From Candidatus Jingweiarchaeum tengchongense (GTDB lineage Archaea > Nanobdellota > Nanobdellia > Jingweiarchaeales > Jingweiarchaeaceae): a DNA stretch of 62,203 nucleotides. This document shows positions 11,023 through 27,310 of this stretch, in pieces. Position 1 is the stretch's first letter, and the number at the start of each line of letters is the position of its first letter. The stretch covers positions 1 through 62,203 of the forward strand of contig JAPDLJ010000006.1 of NCBI GenBank assembly GCA_025920705.1, given 5' to 3'. The position numbers were made by a program, and so were the translations under genes. The notes beneath the pieces were generated by a model. The model was not told the origin of the DNA, made no database searches, and saw nothing but the letters and a program-made list of their open reading frames with translations.

Positions 11023-11033
11023 AGATTTGGTAG

Positions 11034-11107
11034 TGGGCCCAGGGAGATTTGAACTCCCGACCTCTACCTTATCAGGGTAGCGCTCTACCAGGCTAAGCTA
11101 TAGGCCC
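11034..11107 (-). tRNA. tRNA-Ile (anticodon GAT)
   Basis: A 74-nt cloverleaf. The acceptor stem GGGCCTA pairs with TGGGCCC (one G-U), the D arm is GCTT...GAGC, the anticodon stem CTACC/GGTAG encloses CTGATAA (anticodon GAT), and the T arm is GGGAG-TTCAAAT-CTCCC. The discriminator is A73. CCA is not encoded (the next bases are CTA), so the CCA enzyme at 53197 is needed. No intron is seen. Confidence 0.97.
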
Positions 11108-18922: not shown

Positions 18923-19252
18923 TCACTTCGGATAAAATCTAATTCTTATTGCGCCAAGCGTTTGCTCCTCATCTAAAAATCTCAATTTCTTCACGCATAT
19001 TGCTTGTTTGTTTATCAAAACTTCATAATGATCGTCCTTTTTCTTAACTATTGCGTCTCTATTCAAATTCCTGTTTCTAATTTCTTCCTCTATTAATTCA
19101 ATTATGCGTTCATCTTTTGTTTCAGCTATATAATGTTTTACGTCTTCTCCTGAAAAGTTAAAATTAACATCAAAAAACTTCTTAATACTAGATATAATTT
19201 TTTGTTCATTTTCTGTGGGATAAACATCAAATTCAATAATTATCCTCGGCAT
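18923..19252 (-). CDS. DUF54-like RNA-binding protein
   Basis: 109 residues. The N-terminal strand (IIIEFDVYPTENEQKI) and the C-terminal LINKQAICVKKLRFLDEEQTLGA resemble the archaeal DUF54/COG1325 'exosome-associated' family, where the common end reads LNKQAA...SPLGPI. The central part is shorter and divergent. No catalytic motif is seen. Its start overlaps the end of rpa by 20 bases. Assignment rests on these two blocks. Confidence 0.7.
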   Translation of the reverse strand: MPRIIIEFDVYPTENEQKIISSIKKFFDVNFNFSGEDVKHYIAETKDERIIELIEEEIRNRNLNRDAIVKKKDDHYEVLINKQAICVKKLRFLDEEQTLGAIRIRFYPK

Positions 19253-20264
19253 TTTGGATCTGTTTTAATAAAATATTAGATTGTATTTTTGGTGATGGAT
19301 TTAGCATGAAATCATGTAAAAGTAGTTCATTGTTTCCAGAAATAATATTTTTTCTTATTTTTCCAGTAAATAAAATTGATTTACCATACAATTTATTAAT
19401 TTTTGAATCAATTATGGAAAAATAATCTTCTATTTTATTTATTTGTTCATATAATTCTTCTATTTTTAAATCCAATAATTTTTCTGCTTTTTTTCCTATT
19501 AAAAAAGCATTTATTGTAGCAGTTCCATCGTCAATTATCATTTTGATAATTAAAACCTTTCTTGGATTTATTTCACCATCCTTGGCGCAGTATTTATTAT
19601 TCATCTCATTGAGTCTACTGTTACATTTAGGACAAAAATATATAAGTGGATAGTTTTTTACTAGTCTGACAATTGAGCCAATTATTTTATACTCTTTGTC
19701 CGGTTCTGTGTCTATCAAAAATGAAAATCTAGCGCTTACTTGTTTTGTAATAAATTTAGTTTCCTCATCGCTTGGATTTATCTCAATTTTACTTTTGGAA
19801 TTAAGATGAATCTCCTTGAAACCAATTTTATTCTCTCTCGTTGTTCCTGAGATGACTTTGATTATATCTCCTTCCTTGATTTCCCCTTGCTCAATCAACT
19901 TGTTTCTATCATCCCAAATTACAACCCTTGCCTTACCTGTTTCATCACCTAACAAGAAACCTCCAACTTTACCTTTGATCTTTCCTTTTTCAAATTCTCT
20001 TGGTTTGTAAATCTTAAGAACCCTACCCATCACAACAACATCTTTAAGGCCAGGAACCAAACTCTGTATCAAAACCCTTGTCTTGATCTTTCCTTTATTT
20101 AATTTTATATTAAGTTCATTTGCGATGATTAGGGCAGCACCTTTTTCTGAAATCAAACCTGAAAGCTCTTTTACCTTGTCTTCAATCTTCTTTTTAATCT
20201 CAGATTCTAGTAATCCAGTTTTTTGTTTAATTATTTCTATTATCTCCTCAAGCGTCGGTTCCAT
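19233..20264 (-). CDS. rpa: Replication protein A (single-stranded DNA-binding)
   Basis: 343 residues. A helical N-terminal part (1-60) precedes an OB fold (VVVMGRVLKIYKPREFEKGK...ARVVIWDD, about 75-160) and a second OB fold with an inserted zinc motif, FCPKCNSRLNEMNNKYCAKDGE. The fourth zinc position, commonly His or Cys, is Asp here. It protects ssDNA at replication forks. It is divergent from the HTH gene at 20314; the two share one TATA element and sit right beside the probable origin. Confidence 0.9.
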   Translation of the reverse strand: MEPTLEEIIEIIKQKTGLLESEIKKKIEDKVKELSGLISEKGAALIIANELNIKLNKGKIKTRVLIQSLVPGLKDVVVMGRVLKIYKPREFEKGKIKGKVGGFLLGDETGKARVVIWDDRNKLIEQGEIKEGDIIKVISGTTRENKIGFKEIHLNSKSKIEINPSDEETKFITKQVSARFSFLIDTEPDKEYKIIGSIVRLVKNYPLIYFCPKCNSRLNEMNNKYCAKDGEINPRKVLIIKMIIDDGTATINAFLIGKKAEKLLDLKIEELYEQINKIEDYFSIIDSKINKLYGKSILFTGKIRKNIISGNNELLLHDFMLNPSPKIQSNILLKQIQNAEDNY

Positions 20265-20295: not shown

Positions 20296-20313
20296 ATTTA
20301 CTATATTGAAAAA

Positions 20314-20862
20314 ATGCGTGGTAGACCTCCTGGCTCAAAGATCCGGGAAAATATTGCTTTAATATTAAATAAATTAAATGTCTCATATGGTTATGAAATA
20401 TACAAGGTGTATAAGCAAGTATTTGGAAAAATCTTATTGAGAGATATTTATTATCATTTAAAAAAAGGCCAGGAACTTGGTGAATTCATAGCAATCGAAA
20501 CCAAGGTAGAACCTGGAAATTTTACTTGGGGAACACAAACAGAAAGGACATATTATACTCTGGGTCCTTTTATTCAAATAAAAATGGATGAAAAGATTGA
20601 ACAAAGGATGAGTATTTTCAAGGAAAAAGAGGTTAACATAAATTGGGAAAATGAGATTAATAAAATAATTATCTCCTTAAATGAAGAAATTGAGAGTATT
20701 ACCCAAAAAAAGATGTCTTATCTAGCAAAGAAAAATGTCCAAGATATGTTATTAAAAAAAATAGAAAAACTCAAAAAATGGGCAGAAAATAAAATAAGCA
20801 AGGAAAAAATGATGGAAATAGAAGAATTAAAGAAAAAAGTACTTTTGATGATTTTAAGATAA
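20314..20862 (+). CDS. Small DNA-binding (winged-HTH, AT-hook-like start) protein
   Basis: 182 residues, very basic. It opens with RGRPPGSK, an AT-hook-like GRP motif, then a winged-helix-like region (about 10-90: YGYEIYKVYKQVFGKILLRDIYYHLKKG) that resembles PadR-like or DPANN-specific regulators. A charged, coiled-coil-rich C-terminus follows (about 100-182). The ATG at 20314 is supported by the upstream TATA box and by the match of GRP at the N-terminus; the longer frame upstream is antisense to rpa. It lies between rpa and the origin region, so a role there is possible but only inferred. Confidence 0.8.
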   Translation: MRGRPPGSKIRENIALILNKLNVSYGYEIYKVYKQVFGKILLRDIYYHLKKGQELGEFIAIETKVEPGNFTWGTQTERTYYTLGPFIQIKMDEKIEQRMSIFKEKEVNINWENEINKIIISLNEEIESITQKKMSYLAKKNVQDMLLKKIEKLKKWAENKISKEKMMEIEELKKKVLLMILR

Positions 20863-20878
20863 CCATATAACCCCTTCA

Positions 20879-21073
20879 TTTCTCTTGGAGATTTTATTTT
20901 AATAATAATTAATTAATTTTTTTCCATATAGAAATAAAAAATATTAAAATTTTTCCAAAAGAAAGACTTAACTTTTCCATAAGAAATAATAAGAGAATCC
21001 ATAAGAAAAAAAGGTGTCATATTTTATATATTTTCTATTATAAAAAACTTTATTAATACTTTTTTTCTTATGG
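20879..21073. other. Probable replication origin with ORB-like boxes
   Basis: This non-coding, very AT-rich segment ends just before orc1. It holds repeats of the form TTTCCATAAGAAA. Forward copies have their CC at 20924-20925, 20955-20956, 20977-20978 and 20999-21000, spaced 31, 22 and 22 bases, near whole helical turns. Inverted copies lie at 20879-20891 (left edge) and 21061-21073 (right edge). The copy at 20995 continues into A-rich sequence and GG, like archaeal origin recognition boxes. An AT stretch (about 21017-21060) could be the unwinding element. An origin upstream of orc1-dp1-dp2 is the known Pyrococcus arrangement. Confidence 0.7.
21037..21046 (+). promoter_or_regulatory. Candidate TATA box of orc1
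   Basis: ATTATAAAAA lies about 25 bases before the inverted origin box at 21061-21073, which would then cover the transcription start. A leader of roughly 30 bases would carry the GGGGTG ribosome site at 21088-21093 before the ATG at 21098. Confidence 0.4.
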
Positions 21074-21097
21074 CGTATACTTTTAAAGGGGTGCTCC

Positions 21098-22297
21098 ATG
21101 AATAAAGTTCAAGAATATTTTGAAAATTTTTTAAACAAAAAATCTTTGTTTCTGAATAAAGAAGTTCTTTCAATTAAATATATACCTGATCAAATATTAC
21201 ATCGTGATTTAGAAATAAAACAATTGAGTGAAATTCTTGCTCCTTCACTTAAAAATGAAAAACCTTCTAATATATTTATTTATGGTAAGACAGGTACTGG
21301 TAAGACTGTGATTACAAAATATGTTTGTTCACAGCTTTATGAAATTGCAAAGAAGAGGAATATACCTATTTCTGTGGTATACATTAATTGTAAAATGAAA
21401 AAGATTACAGATACAGAGTATAGATTGATTTCACAATTAACCAAAGAGTTCGGTAAGGAAGTACCTTATACTGGATTACCAACAAATGAAGTATATAAAA
21501 TGTTTTTTGAGGTGATTGATAAAAAAAATCAAGTAATTATACTAATATTGGATGAAATAGATAACTTAATAAAAAAATGTGGTGATGAAATTCTTTATAA
21601 CTTAACAAGGGTGAACTCCGAATTAAAAAATGCCAAGATTACTATTGTTGGAATAACAAACGATGTGACATTCATAAATGAATTGGATCCAAGGGTAAGA
21701 AGTTCACTAAATGAAGAGGAAATAGTTTTTCAACCATACGATGCACTCCAACTCAAAGATATCCTACTGGAAAGAGCAAGATTGGCATTCGAACCAAATG
21801 TGATTTCAGAATCTGTCATTTCAAAGTGCGCAGCATATGCTGCGAGAGAACATGGTGATGCAAGAAGAGCAATTGAGTTATTAAGAGTAGCAGCTGAGAT
21901 TGCAGAGAGAGATGGCAGTTCCATGATAGAAGAAAAACATGTGGATCTAGCTGATGAAAAGATTGAACTTGATAAAGTGATAGAAATTGTGAAGAAATTA
22001 CCAAAACAATCTCAAGTACTTCTATATTCAATTATTCTTATAAATAAGAATAAAGGTTTGATTTATACAGGAGAAGTCTATGATGTTTATAAAAATATCT
22101 GCTCTGAAGCAAAAGTTAATGAACTAACACAAAGGAGACTCTCAGACTTAATCGCAGAGCTTGATCTTCTAGGTATAATAAAAACAAGATTGATAAGTAA
22201 GGGTAGATATGGAAAAATGAGAGAGATATCTTTAATGATAGGTAAAGACACAATAAATAAAATAGAAGGAATAATTAAAGAACAACTTGGTATTTAG
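21098..22297 (+). CDS. cdc6: Orc1/Cdc6 origin-binding initiator
   Basis: 399 residues, AAA+ ATPase with a C-terminal winged helix. Walker A is YGKTGTGKT (about 62-70), Walker B LILDEIDN (about 148-155), sensor 1 ITIVGITND, and sensor 2 EHGDARRAIELL. The C-terminal domain contains the origin-binding winged helix (about 310-399). In archaea it binds ORB repeats and loads MCM. The GGGGTG site five bases before the ATG fixes the start. It directly follows the candidate origin and is followed by dp1 with 13 bases between. Confidence 0.97.
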   Translation: MNKVQEYFENFLNKKSLFLNKEVLSIKYIPDQILHRDLEIKQLSEILAPSLKNEKPSNIFIYGKTGTGKTVITKYVCSQLYEIAKKRNIPISVVYINCKMKKITDTEYRLISQLTKEFGKEVPYTGLPTNEVYKMFFEVIDKKNQVIILILDEIDNLIKKCGDEILYNLTRVNSELKNAKITIVGITNDVTFINELDPRVRSSLNEEEIVFQPYDALQLKDILLERARLAFEPNVISESVISKCAAYAAREHGDARRAIELLRVAAEIAERDGSSMIEEKHVDLADEKIELDKVIEIVKKLPKQSQVLLYSIILINKNKGLIYTGEVYDVYKNICSEAKVNELTQRRLSDLIAELDLLGIIKTRLISKGRYGKMREISLMIGKDTINKIEGIIKEQLGI

Positions 22298-22310: not shown

Positions 22311-23786
22311 ATGTCAGAGATCATAAAGAAGTTTGCTGAGAAAGGTTTTTTAATTTCTCCCACGCTTGTCCCTAAAATCACAGATCATACAAAGTTCTTG
22401 GATTTTCTAGAAACTAACTTCAAAAATAAGATTTCTGTTGTGACAGAAGAGATATATAAAAATTTTGTTAGTGGATGTTTAACATTCACAAAAAATAATA
22501 AAGATGTTAAAATTGTTAAAGAGAGGGAGGTCAAACAAGACGGGTCAAAGGTGGAAATAACAAAGATATACGAACACGAAAATAAGAAAAGAGATATAAG
22601 TGATTGGGTGGGATACTACAACAGTAGGTTTGAACAGATTAAAAACTTCCTTTATCACAGAATTGAATTACAAGGTGCAATATCCATCAATCGACTTATT
22701 TCAAGAGATATGAAAGAGCTAGCAACAATTGCCATGGTTAAATCAATATCAAAGTCAAAGTTTGGCAATTTTATCATTGAATTAGAAGATACTACAGGTG
22801 TAATCAAAGGAGTTGTAAGTAAAAATTCACCATGTATACAGAAGGTTGAAGAGCTTGTAGAAGATGAGGTAATAGGTGTTTTGGGTTCAAAATCAAGGGA
22901 GATGATCTTTATTCAAGATATCATATTTCCAGATATCCCAGAAAAAGAGACCAAGAAATGTAATGAAGAGGTTTATGCTTGTTTTATTGCAGATACGCAT
23001 GTTGGTTCCAAGATGTTTTTATCGAGCGCTTTTGACAGATTCTTAAAATGGTTAAATTTGGAATTGGGTGATGAAAAACAAAAAGAAATTGCCAAAAAAA
23101 TAAGATACTTATTTGTTGTTGGAGATCTTGTTGATGGTGTAGGTATATATCCTGAACAGGAGAATGAATTGTTAATTAAAGATATCTATCAACAGTATGA
23201 AGAATTCGCGAAACTTATTCAAAGAGTACCAGAGAGAATTAGTGTGATCATTTCACCAGGAAACCATGATGCGTTGCGCATAGCTGAACCACAACATGCA
23301 CTTTATGATGATATTGCAAAGCCAGTTTATCAGCTTCCAAATGTGATAATGACTTCAAATCCAAGCTACGTAAGGATACACGCAATTGATGATTTTCCAG
23401 GATTTGATGTACTTCTTTATCATGGCTATAGTTTAGATTATTTTGTTGCAAATGTGCCTAAATTGAGGAGATATGGATACGAGAGGGCTGATCTATTAAT
23501 GAAATTTTTATTGAGAAAAAGACATCTAGCACCGACACATGGTTCAACCTTGTTTGCACCAATGCAGAACGATTTTCTTGTGATAGATAAAGTACCAGAC
23601 ATATTTGCAACAGCACACATACATAAAGCAAGAGTTGGATGTTATAGGAATGTGATAAATATTTGTTGTTCTTGTTGGCAAGATCGAACGGTATTTCAAG
23701 AAAGAGTTGGACATGTACCAGAACCAGGGAGGGTCCCAATCTTCAATCTTAAAACAAGAGAAGTGAAGATGATGAGGTTCATATGA
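22311..23786 (+). CDS. dp1: DNA polymerase D small subunit (DP1)
   Basis: 491 residues. An OB-like domain in the middle (SKFGNFIIELEDTTG region) precedes a calcineurin-like exonuclease domain with all metal motifs: FIADTHVGS, VVGDLVDG, SPGNHDALR, LYHGYS, THGS and ATAHIHKAR. It should therefore be an active 3'-5' proofreading subunit. The start at 22311 follows a GGTG site; the frame extends further upstream but overlaps cdc6. It is paired with DP2 downstream. Confidence 0.97.
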   Translation: MSEIIKKFAEKGFLISPTLVPKITDHTKFLDFLETNFKNKISVVTEEIYKNFVSGCLTFTKNNKDVKIVKEREVKQDGSKVEITKIYEHENKKRDISDWVGYYNSRFEQIKNFLYHRIELQGAISINRLISRDMKELATIAMVKSISKSKFGNFIIELEDTTGVIKGVVSKNSPCIQKVEELVEDEVIGVLGSKSREMIFIQDIIFPDIPEKETKKCNEEVYACFIADTHVGSKMFLSSAFDRFLKWLNLELGDEKQKEIAKKIRYLFVVGDLVDGVGIYPEQENELLIKDIYQQYEEFAKLIQRVPERISVIISPGNHDALRIAEPQHALYDDIAKPVYQLPNVIMTSNPSYVRIHAIDDFPGFDVLLYHGYSLDYFVANVPKLRRYGYERADLLMKFLLRKRHLAPTHGSTLFAPMQNDFLVIDKVPDIFATAHIHKARVGCYRNVINICCSCWQDRTVFQERVGHVPEPGRVPIFNLKTREVKMMRFI

Positions 23787-23827: not shown

Positions 23828-23848
23828 AGGCTTTTTCTTTTTTTGCTC

Positions 23849-26800
23849 ATGCCAATTGCTTCTGAAGAAATGCAAGGATATTTTAGTGAAATAGAGAGTA
23901 AAGTAAAAACAGCATATGAAATTGCACAAAAAGCAAGGAGTCTCGGTCTTGATCCTGAAGACTTTGTAGATATTCCTCTAGCAAGGGACTTGTCAGAGAG
24001 AGTTGAAGGATTGGTTGCAGTTCTAAAACCAGAGATAAAGGGCACAGGATTGTCACAAAGGATTAGAGAGATAGAGAAAGAGTTCAAGCCAAATGATTGG
24101 AGAGTTGCATTGAAGATAGCAGAAGAGGTTGCAAGGGGGAAGTTTTGTTCATTTAATGACTTAAGAGAAGCAATGGAACTTGGAATAAGGGTTGCATTGG
24201 CTTATGTTACACTTGGTATTGTCTCCGCGCCATTGGAAGGTTTTGTTGAACTCCAAATTAAAAAAAGGATGGATGGTGGTAATTATGTTGCTTGTTTTTT
24301 CTCTGGCCCAATAAGGGCAGCTGGAGGAACTGCTGCTGCATTTACTGTGATTGTTGCTGATTACCTGAGAAGAGTTTTTGGGTTTGATAAGTATGATCCG
24401 ACAAATGAAGAAATAGAAAGATATGTGACTGAGATTGATGATTATCACCGGGTGTTGGCAAGGTTGCAATATTTACCGATTAAGGAAGAAATTAGTTTTT
24501 TAGTATCACATATTCCAATTGAAATCACAGGAGACCCAACATCTGATAGAGAAGTATCTAATTATAAAGACCTAAAGAGAGTTGGTACAAATAGGATAAG
24601 AGGAGGAATGTGTTTAGTTCTTTGTGAAGGTGTTGCTCAGAAAGCAAAAAAAATATTGAAAGAGATAAAAAGTTGGGGAAAAGATTTTTTCTTAGATGAA
24701 TGGGTGTTTCTCCAAGATTACTTGGAAATTCAGAAAAAAGCACATACAAAGGAGATAGAAACAAATTCAAAGATAAAACCAGATTTTAGATTCATAGAAG
24801 AGTCAGTTGCAGGGAGACCCGTGTTCTCTTTTCCACTAGCGAGAGGGGGTTTTAGATTGAGGTATGGAAGGAGTAGAGTCAGTGGTTTGGCCGCATGTTC
24901 AATCCACCCTGCCACAATGCGCATATTGGATGATTTCATTGCTATAGGTTCGCAATTAAGAGTTGAGAGACCAGGAAAAGCATGTGCAATTACTGTTTGT
25001 GATACGATCGAAGGACCAGTTGTCAAATTGAAAGATGGAAGTGTAATTAGAGTAGAGAATGAATTACAAGCACTTGAAATCAAAGATAAGATTGTTGAAA
25101 TCCTTTTCTTAGGGGATATACTTGTTAGCTATGGAGATTTTTTAGAACAGAACCACGTACTTGTTCCATCCGGATATGTTGAAGAGTGGTGGATTCAAGA
25201 ACTAGAGGAAAAAGCAAAGGATAAAGTTGATATAAAAACTTTAAAAGATAGAATTACAAAGATTGGGGCTGAGGAAGCAGTGAAATTTTCCTTAGAGTAT
25301 AACATTCCTTTACACCCACGTTACACATATTTTTGGAACAACATCGACAATAGTCTGTTATTTTACCTTCTAAATAAGCTCCAAACCAATTCTTCGATTT
25401 TCGAAAATGAGATTTATGTAGAAGGGGATGATAAAGTTAAACGCGCCTTGGAATTGATATGTATACCTCATAAGTACAAAGAAAGGAAAATTTTGATTGA
25501 AGGTGATGATGCAGTTGCATTTCTTTATTCAATTGGATTTCTTCCGGATAAAACGTGGAAAATGAAGGAAGCACTTGAATTCAAAGACAAAGATATACTC
25601 ACAATTCTAAACTCAATTTCAAAAATAAAGATAAGAGATAAAGCCCCAATTACGATTGGTGCCAGATTGGGTAGACCGGAAAAAGCAAAATTAAGGAAAT
25701 TAAAGGGAAGCCCACAGGTTTTGTTTCCAGTTGGGAACCAAGGAGGGAGGATGAGAAGTTTTAATGAAGCAATTAATAAAGGTTATGTTGAAGCAGAGTT
25801 TCCCATATTTTTTTGTGAGAAGTGTAACATCAAAACAATATATACTCATTGCGAGATCTGTGGTGAAAAAACGAAAGAATACAAAGTATGTCAAAAATGT
25901 AAGAGATACACACAGTTAAATACACATTGCGGAATGCCAACAAGAGCATTTGAGAGAAGAAAGATTGAAATTAAAGATGAGATTGAGCGTGCATTAAAGA
26001 ACTTAAATGTTGAGCTTCCAGAATTAGTTAAAGGAGTAAGAGGAACATCAAACAAGAAGCGGATACCTGAAAGAATTGAAAAGGGAATTTTGAGAGCGAT
26101 ACATGATCTATACGTAAATAAAGATGGGACGATTAGATTTGACATCATTGAAGCACCCATCACACATTTTAAGCCGAAAGAGATAGGAACGAGTATTGAT
26201 AAATTAAGGGAACTTGGATACAAAAAAGATATTTTTGGCAATGAAATCGTGAGTGATGAACAGGTAATTGAATTGAAACCACAAGATGTGATTCTTCCTG
26301 ATTGTGAAGAATGGGAGGGTGCAAGTGCATCTGATGCATTGATGAAGATATGTAATTTTATCGATGATCTTCTCATTAGATTTTACAAACTTGAGCCTTT
26401 TTACAACATCAAATCCAAGGGTGACCTTGTTGGTCACTTAATCATTGGATTAGCGCCACACACAAGTGCCGGTATTGTTGGGAGGATTATCGGATTTTCG
26501 AAAACACAAGCATATTTTGCACATCCTTATTTCCATGCAGCGATGAGGAGAAACTGTGATGGTGATGAAGCTTGCTTCATTCTCCTATTAGATGCATTAT
26601 TAAACTTCTCACACCAATTTCTTCCCGCAACAAGAGGAGCATCAACGATGGATGCACCACTTGTATTGACAACAATTCTTGATCCGATAGAAGTTGACAA
26701 GGAAGTGCACAACATGGACGTAGTCAACATTTATCCGCTTGAATTTTATGAAGCGACACTTAATTGGAGAGATCCAAATGAAGTGAAAATAAACAAAGTT

Positions 26801-27310
26801 CAGGATAGATTGAAAACTGAATTGCAATATGAGGGATTAATGTACACGCATGATGTTTCTGATATAAATGCTGGTGCGAGAGTCTCATCATACAAGACAC
26901 TCGTGACAATGATAGATAAAGTTGAGAAGCAAATGGCTCTAGCTGAAAAGATCTTAGCTGTTAATAAATGTGATGTAGCCAGGATCATCATTGAAAAGCA
27001 CTTCTTGAAAGATATCAAAGGAAATTTAAGAGAATTTTCAAAGCAAGAGTTTAGGTGTATTGATTGTAATGAAAAGTATCGTAGAATACCATTAAGTGGC
27101 AAGTGTTTGAAATGTGGAGGAAAACTAGTGCTCACAGTGGCCGAGGGTACAGTAAGCAAATACTTAGATATTTCCTTGTCACTTGCAGAGCGATACAATT
27201 TACCTTCCTATTTAAGACAAACGTTGGAGATAATAAAAAGGAGAGTTGAATCAATATTTGGCAAGGAAAAAGAGAAGCAAACATTACTTAACTCTTATGC
27301 AAAATCATAG
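23849..27310 (+). CDS. dp2: DNA polymerase D large catalytic subunit (DP2)
   Basis: 1153 residues, without an intein. The catalytic NCDGD motif with its two aspartates is near residue 901 (AAMRRNCDGDEAC). Zinc modules are visible at about 656-690 (CEKCN...CEICG...CQKC) and at the C-terminus near 1070 (CIDCNEKY...CLKCGG). PolD is the replicative polymerase of most archaea outside the Thermoproteota. The ATG at 23849 fits the TATA spacing; the TTG at 23843 is less likely. The protein is somewhat shorter than the Pyrococcus enzyme, mostly in loops. Confidence 0.97.
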   Translation: MPIASEEMQGYFSEIESKVKTAYEIAQKARSLGLDPEDFVDIPLARDLSERVEGLVAVLKPEIKGTGLSQRIREIEKEFKPNDWRVALKIAEEVARGKFCSFNDLREAMELGIRVALAYVTLGIVSAPLEGFVELQIKKRMDGGNYVACFFSGPIRAAGGTAAAFTVIVADYLRRVFGFDKYDPTNEEIERYVTEIDDYHRVLARLQYLPIKEEISFLVSHIPIEITGDPTSDREVSNYKDLKRVGTNRIRGGMCLVLCEGVAQKAKKILKEIKSWGKDFFLDEWVFLQDYLEIQKKAHTKEIETNSKIKPDFRFIEESVAGRPVFSFPLARGGFRLRYGRSRVSGLAACSIHPATMRILDDFIAIGSQLRVERPGKACAITVCDTIEGPVVKLKDGSVIRVENELQALEIKDKIVEILFLGDILVSYGDFLEQNHVLVPSGYVEEWWIQELEEKAKDKVDIKTLKDRITKIGAEEAVKFSLEYNIPLHPRYTYFWNNIDNSLLFYLLNKLQTNSSIFENEIYVEGDDKVKRALELICIPHKYKERKILIEGDDAVAFLYSIGFLPDKTWKMKEALEFKDKDILTILNSISKIKIRDKAPITIGARLGRPEKAKLRKLKGSPQVLFPVGNQGGRMRSFNEAINKGYVEAEFPIFFCEKCNIKTIYTHCEICGEKTKEYKVCQKCKRYTQLNTHCGMPTRAFERRKIEIKDEIERALKNLNVELPELVKGVRGTSNKKRIPERIEKGILRAIHDLYVNKDGTIRFDIIEAPITHFKPKEIGTSIDKLRELGYKKDIFGNEIVSDEQVIELKPQDVILPDCEEWEGASASDALMKICNFIDDLLIRFYKLEPFYNIKSKGDLVGHLIIGLAPHTSAGIVGRIIGFSKTQAYFAHPYFHAAMRRNCDGDEACFILLLDALLNFSHQFLPATRGASTMDAPLVLTTILDPIEVDKEVHNMDVVNIYPLEFYEATLNWRDPNEVKINKVQDRLKTELQYEGLMYTHDVSDINAGARVSSYKTLVTMIDKVEKQMALAEKILAVNKCDVARIIIEKHFLKDIKGNLREFSKQEFRCIDCNEKYRRIPLSGKCLKCGGKLVLTVAEGTVSKYLDISLSLAERYNLPSYLRQTLEIIKRRVESIFGKEKEKQTLLNSYAKS

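Follow-up and report, generated by a model that had tools for sequence, protein, structure and literature searches.

Does the AT-rich intergenic DNA in front of the orc1, dp1 and dp2 genes of this archaeon act as its chromosomal replication origin, and do all of the repeated boxes within it belong to the initiator? The window analysed here, a stretch of 62,203 nt, is contig C37 of a 1.12 Mb metagenome-assembled genome that consists of 40 contigs and is 92.5% complete. Judging from its sequence, the segment 20868-21076 is very probably the orc1-linked chromosomal origin (oriC) of a small uncultured DPANN archaeon, at which replication would fire. The ORB origin itself is of a known type, and the novelty is a third element, a palindrome in the centre of the locus. 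Literature searches on the anatomy of DPANN origins gave passing mentions only. The features of the locus and the adjacent genes are summarized in Table 1.

Table 1. Features of the orc1-linked locus, with positions in the window
Feature	Position	Strand	Evidence
Gene for a replication factor A-like (RPA) protein, in divergent orientation to the winged-helix gene	19233-20264	-	Pfam and NCBIfam matches that fall short of the NCBIfam cut-off
Palindrome ATTTACTATATTGAAAAA, immediately preceding the start codon of the winged-helix gene	20296-20313	.	20.9 bits, best palindrome match genome-wide
AT-hook (RGRP) and PadR-like winged-helix protein, 182 aa, candidate palindrome binder	20314-20862	+	AlphaFold2 pLDDT 90.6; Foldseek to PadR/VanR
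Left full ORB TCTCCAAGAGAAATGAAGGGGTTA	20868-20891	-	Dyad and G-string GGGGT; 25.3 bits, top PWM match of the genome
AT-rich stretch between opposing ORBs, candidate DNA-unwinding element	20892-20951	.	Sequence; location analogous to that in archaeal origins (PMC6742236)
Central palindrome TTTTTCCATATAGAAATA (box 1), not an ORB	20919-20936	.	13.7 bits and rank 11 genome-wide with a palindrome PWM built on class relatives
Mini-ORB-like box TTTCCAAAAGAAAG (box 2), without G-string	20952-20965	+	Core 14.5 bits
Mini-ORB-like box TTTCCATAAGAAAT (box 3), without G-string	20974-20987	+	Core 18.2 bits
Right full ORB AATCCATAAGAAAAAAAGGTGTCA (box 4)	20996-21019	+	20.1 bits, 3rd-best genome match
Inverted ORB core, orc1 promoter, candidate Orc1 autoregulatory site	21063-21076	-	Core 9.9 bits
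orc1/cdc6 initiator gene, Orc1-1 type	21098-22297	+	NCBIfam NF001625; PDB 2qby_A, 2v1u_A
dp1, DNA polymerase D small subunit, likely ATG start	22311-23786	+	NCBIfam NF003118
dp2, DNA polymerase D large subunit	23843-27310	+	Pfam PF24846, PF24844, PF03833

ORBs of the orc1 locus

An ORB PWM of 24 positions was trained on orc1-upstream DNA (at most 600 bp per locus) from 76 loci, with this genome excluded, and gave the consensus TTTCCATAGGAAATAAAGGTGTGT. When the whole 1.12-Mb genome was scanned, the two full ORBs of the locus took the first and the third ranks (Table 1). The second-best match (C40:24380) was set aside as a chance match because it is located inside a gene for a ZIP-type transporter. 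A genome of equal size simulated with a first-order Markov model reached at most 17 bits for ORBs on one strand. ORB-core matches are also densest at this locus, with five in 250 bp vs a maximum of three elsewhere in the 1.12-Mb genome. A genome-wide search for the exact TTTCCATAAGAAA was uninformative, with matches near the control level. The possibility that the boxes are chance repeats, to be expected in very AT-rich intergenic DNA where simple box matches elsewhere stay at the control level, is contradicted by the independent PWM ranks, by the simulated maximum and by the density of the cluster, and its probability is negligible.

The first-pass annotation of this DNA described four phased forward ORB-like boxes, some of them continuing into a G-string, with inverted copies at both edges and an AT-rich stretch. 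The CC pairs at positions 20924, 20955, 20977 and 20999, read from the sequence, reproduce the reported spacings of 31, 22 and 22 bases exactly, and both the inverted copies and the AT-richness are present. The near-helical phasing is general, since the same-strand spacings of 20-23 and 29-31 bp are preferred and recur in relatives. The G-string is found in box 4 and in the left inverted copy, which are thus full ORBs, whereas boxes 2 and 3 lack it. The left full ORB extends to position 20868, to the left of the interval start proposed earlier (20879). Boxes 2 to 4 are indeed ORB-like; box 1 (TTTCCATATAGAAA, 20919-20936) is not an ORB, because its half-sites are separated by four bases instead of three, it carries no G-string and its ORB-core score is under 5 bits, and it represents another palindrome family.

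The suggestion that the box is lineage-specific fails, since these are ordinary archaeal ORBs. The left box (TCCAAGAGAAATGAAGGGGT) fits, save for three central bases, the common ORB motif TCCA[CG]T[TG]GAAA[TC][GA]AAGGGGT from DoriC (PMC4164010), and versions with GGAAA occur in relatives. The lineage-specific part of the locus is the central palindrome, which the same annotation had counted as an ORB. Archaeal ORB-type origins such as Sulfolobus oriC1 and Pyrococcus oriC likewise have the ORB dyad with a G-string, an orc1 gene alongside, opposing ORBs that flank AT-rich DNA, and a single orc1-linked cluster. They differ in the right half-site, which is AGAAA here and GGAAA there, and the extra palindrome of our locus is not described for Pyrococcus in the literature compared.

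Conservation of the ORB arrangement

The reverse-then-forward layout of ORBs is found in 70 of the 73 relatives with enough upstream DNA. Opposed ORBs around AT-rich DNA have been described for archaeal origins (PMC6742236), and their conservation, together with the canonical ORBs and an Orc1 of the ORB-binding type, upholds the origin proposed in the first-pass annotation. The nearest solved structures to Orc1 are Sulfolobus Orc1-1 (2qby_A) and Aeropyrum ORC1 (2v1u), with the C-terminal winged-helix region aligned too; it is by this alignment with Orc1-1 that the protein is classified as the ORB-binding type.

According to the established model, Orc1 bound to opposed ORBs guides MCM to the AT-rich DNA that they enclose (PMC6742236). 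At the locus studied here, Orc1 would bind the two full ORBs, which are opposed, as well as the mini-ORBs in between, and MCM would be loaded onto the intervening AT-rich DNA because ORBs bind Orc1 directionally. In 48 of 76 loci, as compared to 0.9% of shuffles, a reverse ORB core of at least 9 bits is found no more than 90 bp from the orc1 start. Such a core in the orc1 promoter probably indicates Orc1 autoregulation, and the inverted core of our locus would provide for this self-regulation.

An origin that is intact in sequence yet little used has a precedent in Thermococcus kodakarensis, which tolerates deletion of cdc6 and of the origin (PMC5663688). We consider this unlikely here, given that both the sequence and the geometry of the ORBs are kept across the sampled relatives. 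It is very improbable that the boxes are mere Orc1 operators for orc1 transcription and that the origin is elsewhere. The reverse core at the orc1 promoter would suit such operators, but the full ORBs are located distally and oppose each other across AT-rich DNA, no second ORB cluster was found in the recovered genome by PWM and core scans, and the single-contig relative G039 has a broad skew minimum near orc1.

GC skew within the window tracks the gene strand and is uninformative on the origin, and the skew of the genome as a whole is unreadable because of its assembly in 40 contigs with 92.5% completeness. The raw cumulative GC skew of G039 has its minimum at 705 kb, within a near-flat region of approximately 675-825 kb, and its peak at approximately 175 kb, roughly opposite the minimum. 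This minimum is broad and about 60 kb away from orc1, which at 764 kb is included in the plateau. The G039 skew is consistent with the origin assignment, as a broad signal from one genome whose sequence contains 2.5% N.

Host relatives and gene neighborhood

Orc1 of the window shares no more than 59% identity with its counterparts in named Aenigmatarchaeota and Nanohaloarchaea; relatives from the same class reach 65%. In the Orc1 tree, the window's class is separate from these named groups and includes three named rows, two labelled Pacearchaeota and one labelled 'archaeon'. Based on Orc1, the host is assigned to the DPANN archaea, in the class including those Pacearchaeota-labelled rows, which may correspond to Nanobdellia of GTDB. 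The Aenigmatarchaeota label suggested by the named matches was dropped in view of this tree.

The neighborhood also allowed several minor observations. A distant second Orc1 paralogue with 29% identity is encoded elsewhere in the genome of the window, at G000:C1:229986-231038, with no ORB match above 15 bits nearby. The gene order is rearranged in four loci of relatives (L016, L020, L026 and L037), where dp2 does not follow dp1 but is found on the other strand, upstream of orc1. The sole tRNA/Rfam match in the window is a tRNA-Ile (GAT) gene at 11033-11107.

A palindrome between the opposing ORBs

At the place corresponding to box 1, the class relatives have a palindrome family of the form ATTTWCNATATNGWAAAT. 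This palindrome is located between the opposing ORBs, on average midway, in 29 of 33 class loci vs 9 expected by area. In the leave-family-out analysis it scored at least 13.8 bits in 24 of 29 loci, and scores of at least 12 bits were obtained in 2.5% of dinucleotide shuffles. At the orc1 loci, most copies are separated from the orc1 start by 146-526 bp of upstream DNA. The central palindrome of this genome is a weaker example of the family (13.7 bits).

The candidate binder is the product of the small unannotated gene at 20314-20862. In this protein an RGRP AT-hook-like motif precedes a winged helix, and the AlphaFold2 model (mean pLDDT 90.6) ends in further helices at the C-terminus. Its top Foldseek matches were PadR-operator complexes (5x11) and VanR (5z7b), with E-values of 1.5e-4 to 1e-3 and probabilities of 0.97-1.00 for the top 11. 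No Pfam family matched this protein, and no PadR family was detected at E<=0.1 in 14 members of its family. Sampling of the phylum detected the family in 134 of 193 genomes; it is essentially absent, with one weak partial match, from the 16 genomes reached via named loci (14 Aenigmatarchaeota/Nanohaloarchaea and 2 labelled Pacearchaeota).

The palindrome recurs in the promoters of the winged-helix genes, where a site of at least 12 bits is located within 100 bp upstream in 15 of 27 cases, as compared to 0.3% of shuffles and to 0.4-0.7% of all ORF starts. The same holds for genomes in which the gene and orc1 are far apart, as in G039 (455 vs 764 kb) and G031 (different contigs). Among 12 genomes compared, the TTTAC form of the palindrome has 4-10 copies in the four with the winged-helix gene and 0-1 copies in the eight that lack it. 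The orc1-locus palindrome is present in all scorable winged-helix-positive genomes and not in the negative ones. A single change on the Orc1 tree suffices to explain the loss of both the gene and the origin palindrome; their co-occurrence is therefore not independent evidence, and we rejected its statistical treatment.

On sequence grounds, the winged-helix protein is the most likely binder of the central palindrome, and we regard this binding as fairly probable. It would occupy the palindrome at 20919-20936, within the AT-rich DNA, and apparently also regulates its own promoter through the site at 20296-20313. The locus offers a conserved putative third element of the origin for which both a candidate binder and the sites are defined, so that two purified proteins and short DNA would suffice for a direct test of the proposal.

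Initiation element or transcriptional operator

We only tentatively ascribe to the winged-helix protein a role in initiation. The main rival reading, which has a considerable though less than even probability, is that the central palindrome is a mere transcriptional operator of a winged-helix regulon and takes no part in initiation, controlling for example the intergenic region between the winged-helix gene and orc1. A regulon of this kind fits the approximately 4-10 copies per genome, mostly intergenic in G039 and found in the regulator's own promoter as well, and the predicted fold is that of PadR transcription factors. At orc1, however, the palindrome mostly lies between the opposing ORBs, at the above distances and clear of the orc1 start, and it keeps this position where the winged-helix gene is elsewhere. 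Moreover, the Sulfolobus protein that binds ucm also combines DNA binding across the genome with a role at the origin (PMC12141716).

The ucm/UBP system of Sulfolobales and Desulfurococcales was reported by Dhanaraju et al. 2025 (PMC12141716). The Sulfolobus ucm element is required for origin activity and is bound by UBP, a nucleoid-associated protein contacting MCM (PMC12141716). Both in that system and in the class loci studied here (29 of 33), a third element is located in the AT-rich DNA between opposing ORBs, and our candidate binder is similarly a small protein with other genomic sites. In contrast, the element described here is a longer symmetric palindrome whose sequence differs from that of ucm, as judged by eye against the ucm oligonucleotide (PMC12141716), and UBP binds DNA through beta-hairpins, whereas the candidate has a predicted PadR-like winged helix and an AT-hook. 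Because both the sequences and the protein folds differ, the palindrome is not a member of the ucm/UBP system; it resembles ucm in position, and by this analogy may have a role in the origin.

The winged-helix protein shares with the PadR/VanR regulators the predicted fold and a palindromic site at its own promoter. It differs from them in the lack of a Pfam PadR match, in the N-terminal AT-hook, in the conserved YYxLKKG and WGxExER motifs, and in having a site inside the origin too. WhiP, the winged-helix initiator of Sulfolobus oriC3, was compared on the basis of reviews (PMC6742236, PMC4010727) and is likewise encoded beside an origin. Unlike the case of WhiP, Orc1 and ORBs are present here, so the winged-helix protein would be an accessory factor and not an initiator.

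A second palindrome form in other DPANN archaea

Another palindrome, ATAACANTGTTAT, was identified in 27 loci, mostly on the Aenigmatarchaeota/Nanohaloarchaea side (orc1 upstream regions L040-L089). In every one of these loci it is flanked by the opposing ORBs, and its distance to the right ORB is mostly 37-40 bp. The numbers of copies range from 0 to 13 per genome, with essentially none in the reversed control, and in two genomes the single match is the one at the origin. No binder of ATAACANTGTTAT was found among the genes of the orc1 neighborhoods. It is conceivable, though we would not call it probable, that DPANN origins have a third, non-Orc1 element between the ORBs, in two lineage-specific forms (ATTTWCNATATNGWAAAT and ATAACANTGTTAT), and that these are independent analogues of ucm/UBP in origin activation. 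If true, this would suggest that an inter-ORB factor is a general feature of archaeal origins, filled by unrelated proteins across lineages.

Additional sites in related genomes

The ATTTWCNATATNGWAAAT-type palindrome sites of G039 are mostly intergenic and spread round the chromosome (for example 56223, 234140, 427968, 647499, 1118127 and 1264737), and two strong copies (762366 and 763695) are within 2 kb of orc1. These recurrent sites may represent a regulon or chromosome-organising sites.

The same genome has a second pair of opposed ORBs (26.7 and 15.0 bits) at G039:C1:781466-781566 (L204/L205), 17 kb from orc1, with a dUTPase-like gene on one side and the paired genes tbp and mcm on the other. 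Control of mcm by Orc1 through this pair is possible in G039.

In seven nanohaloarchaeal orc1 promoters (L057, L060, L064, L065, L068, L084 and L085), two reverse ORB cores approximately 30 bp apart flank the TATA-like TTATAAACCTT, an arrangement that looks like an Orc1 autoregulatory module.
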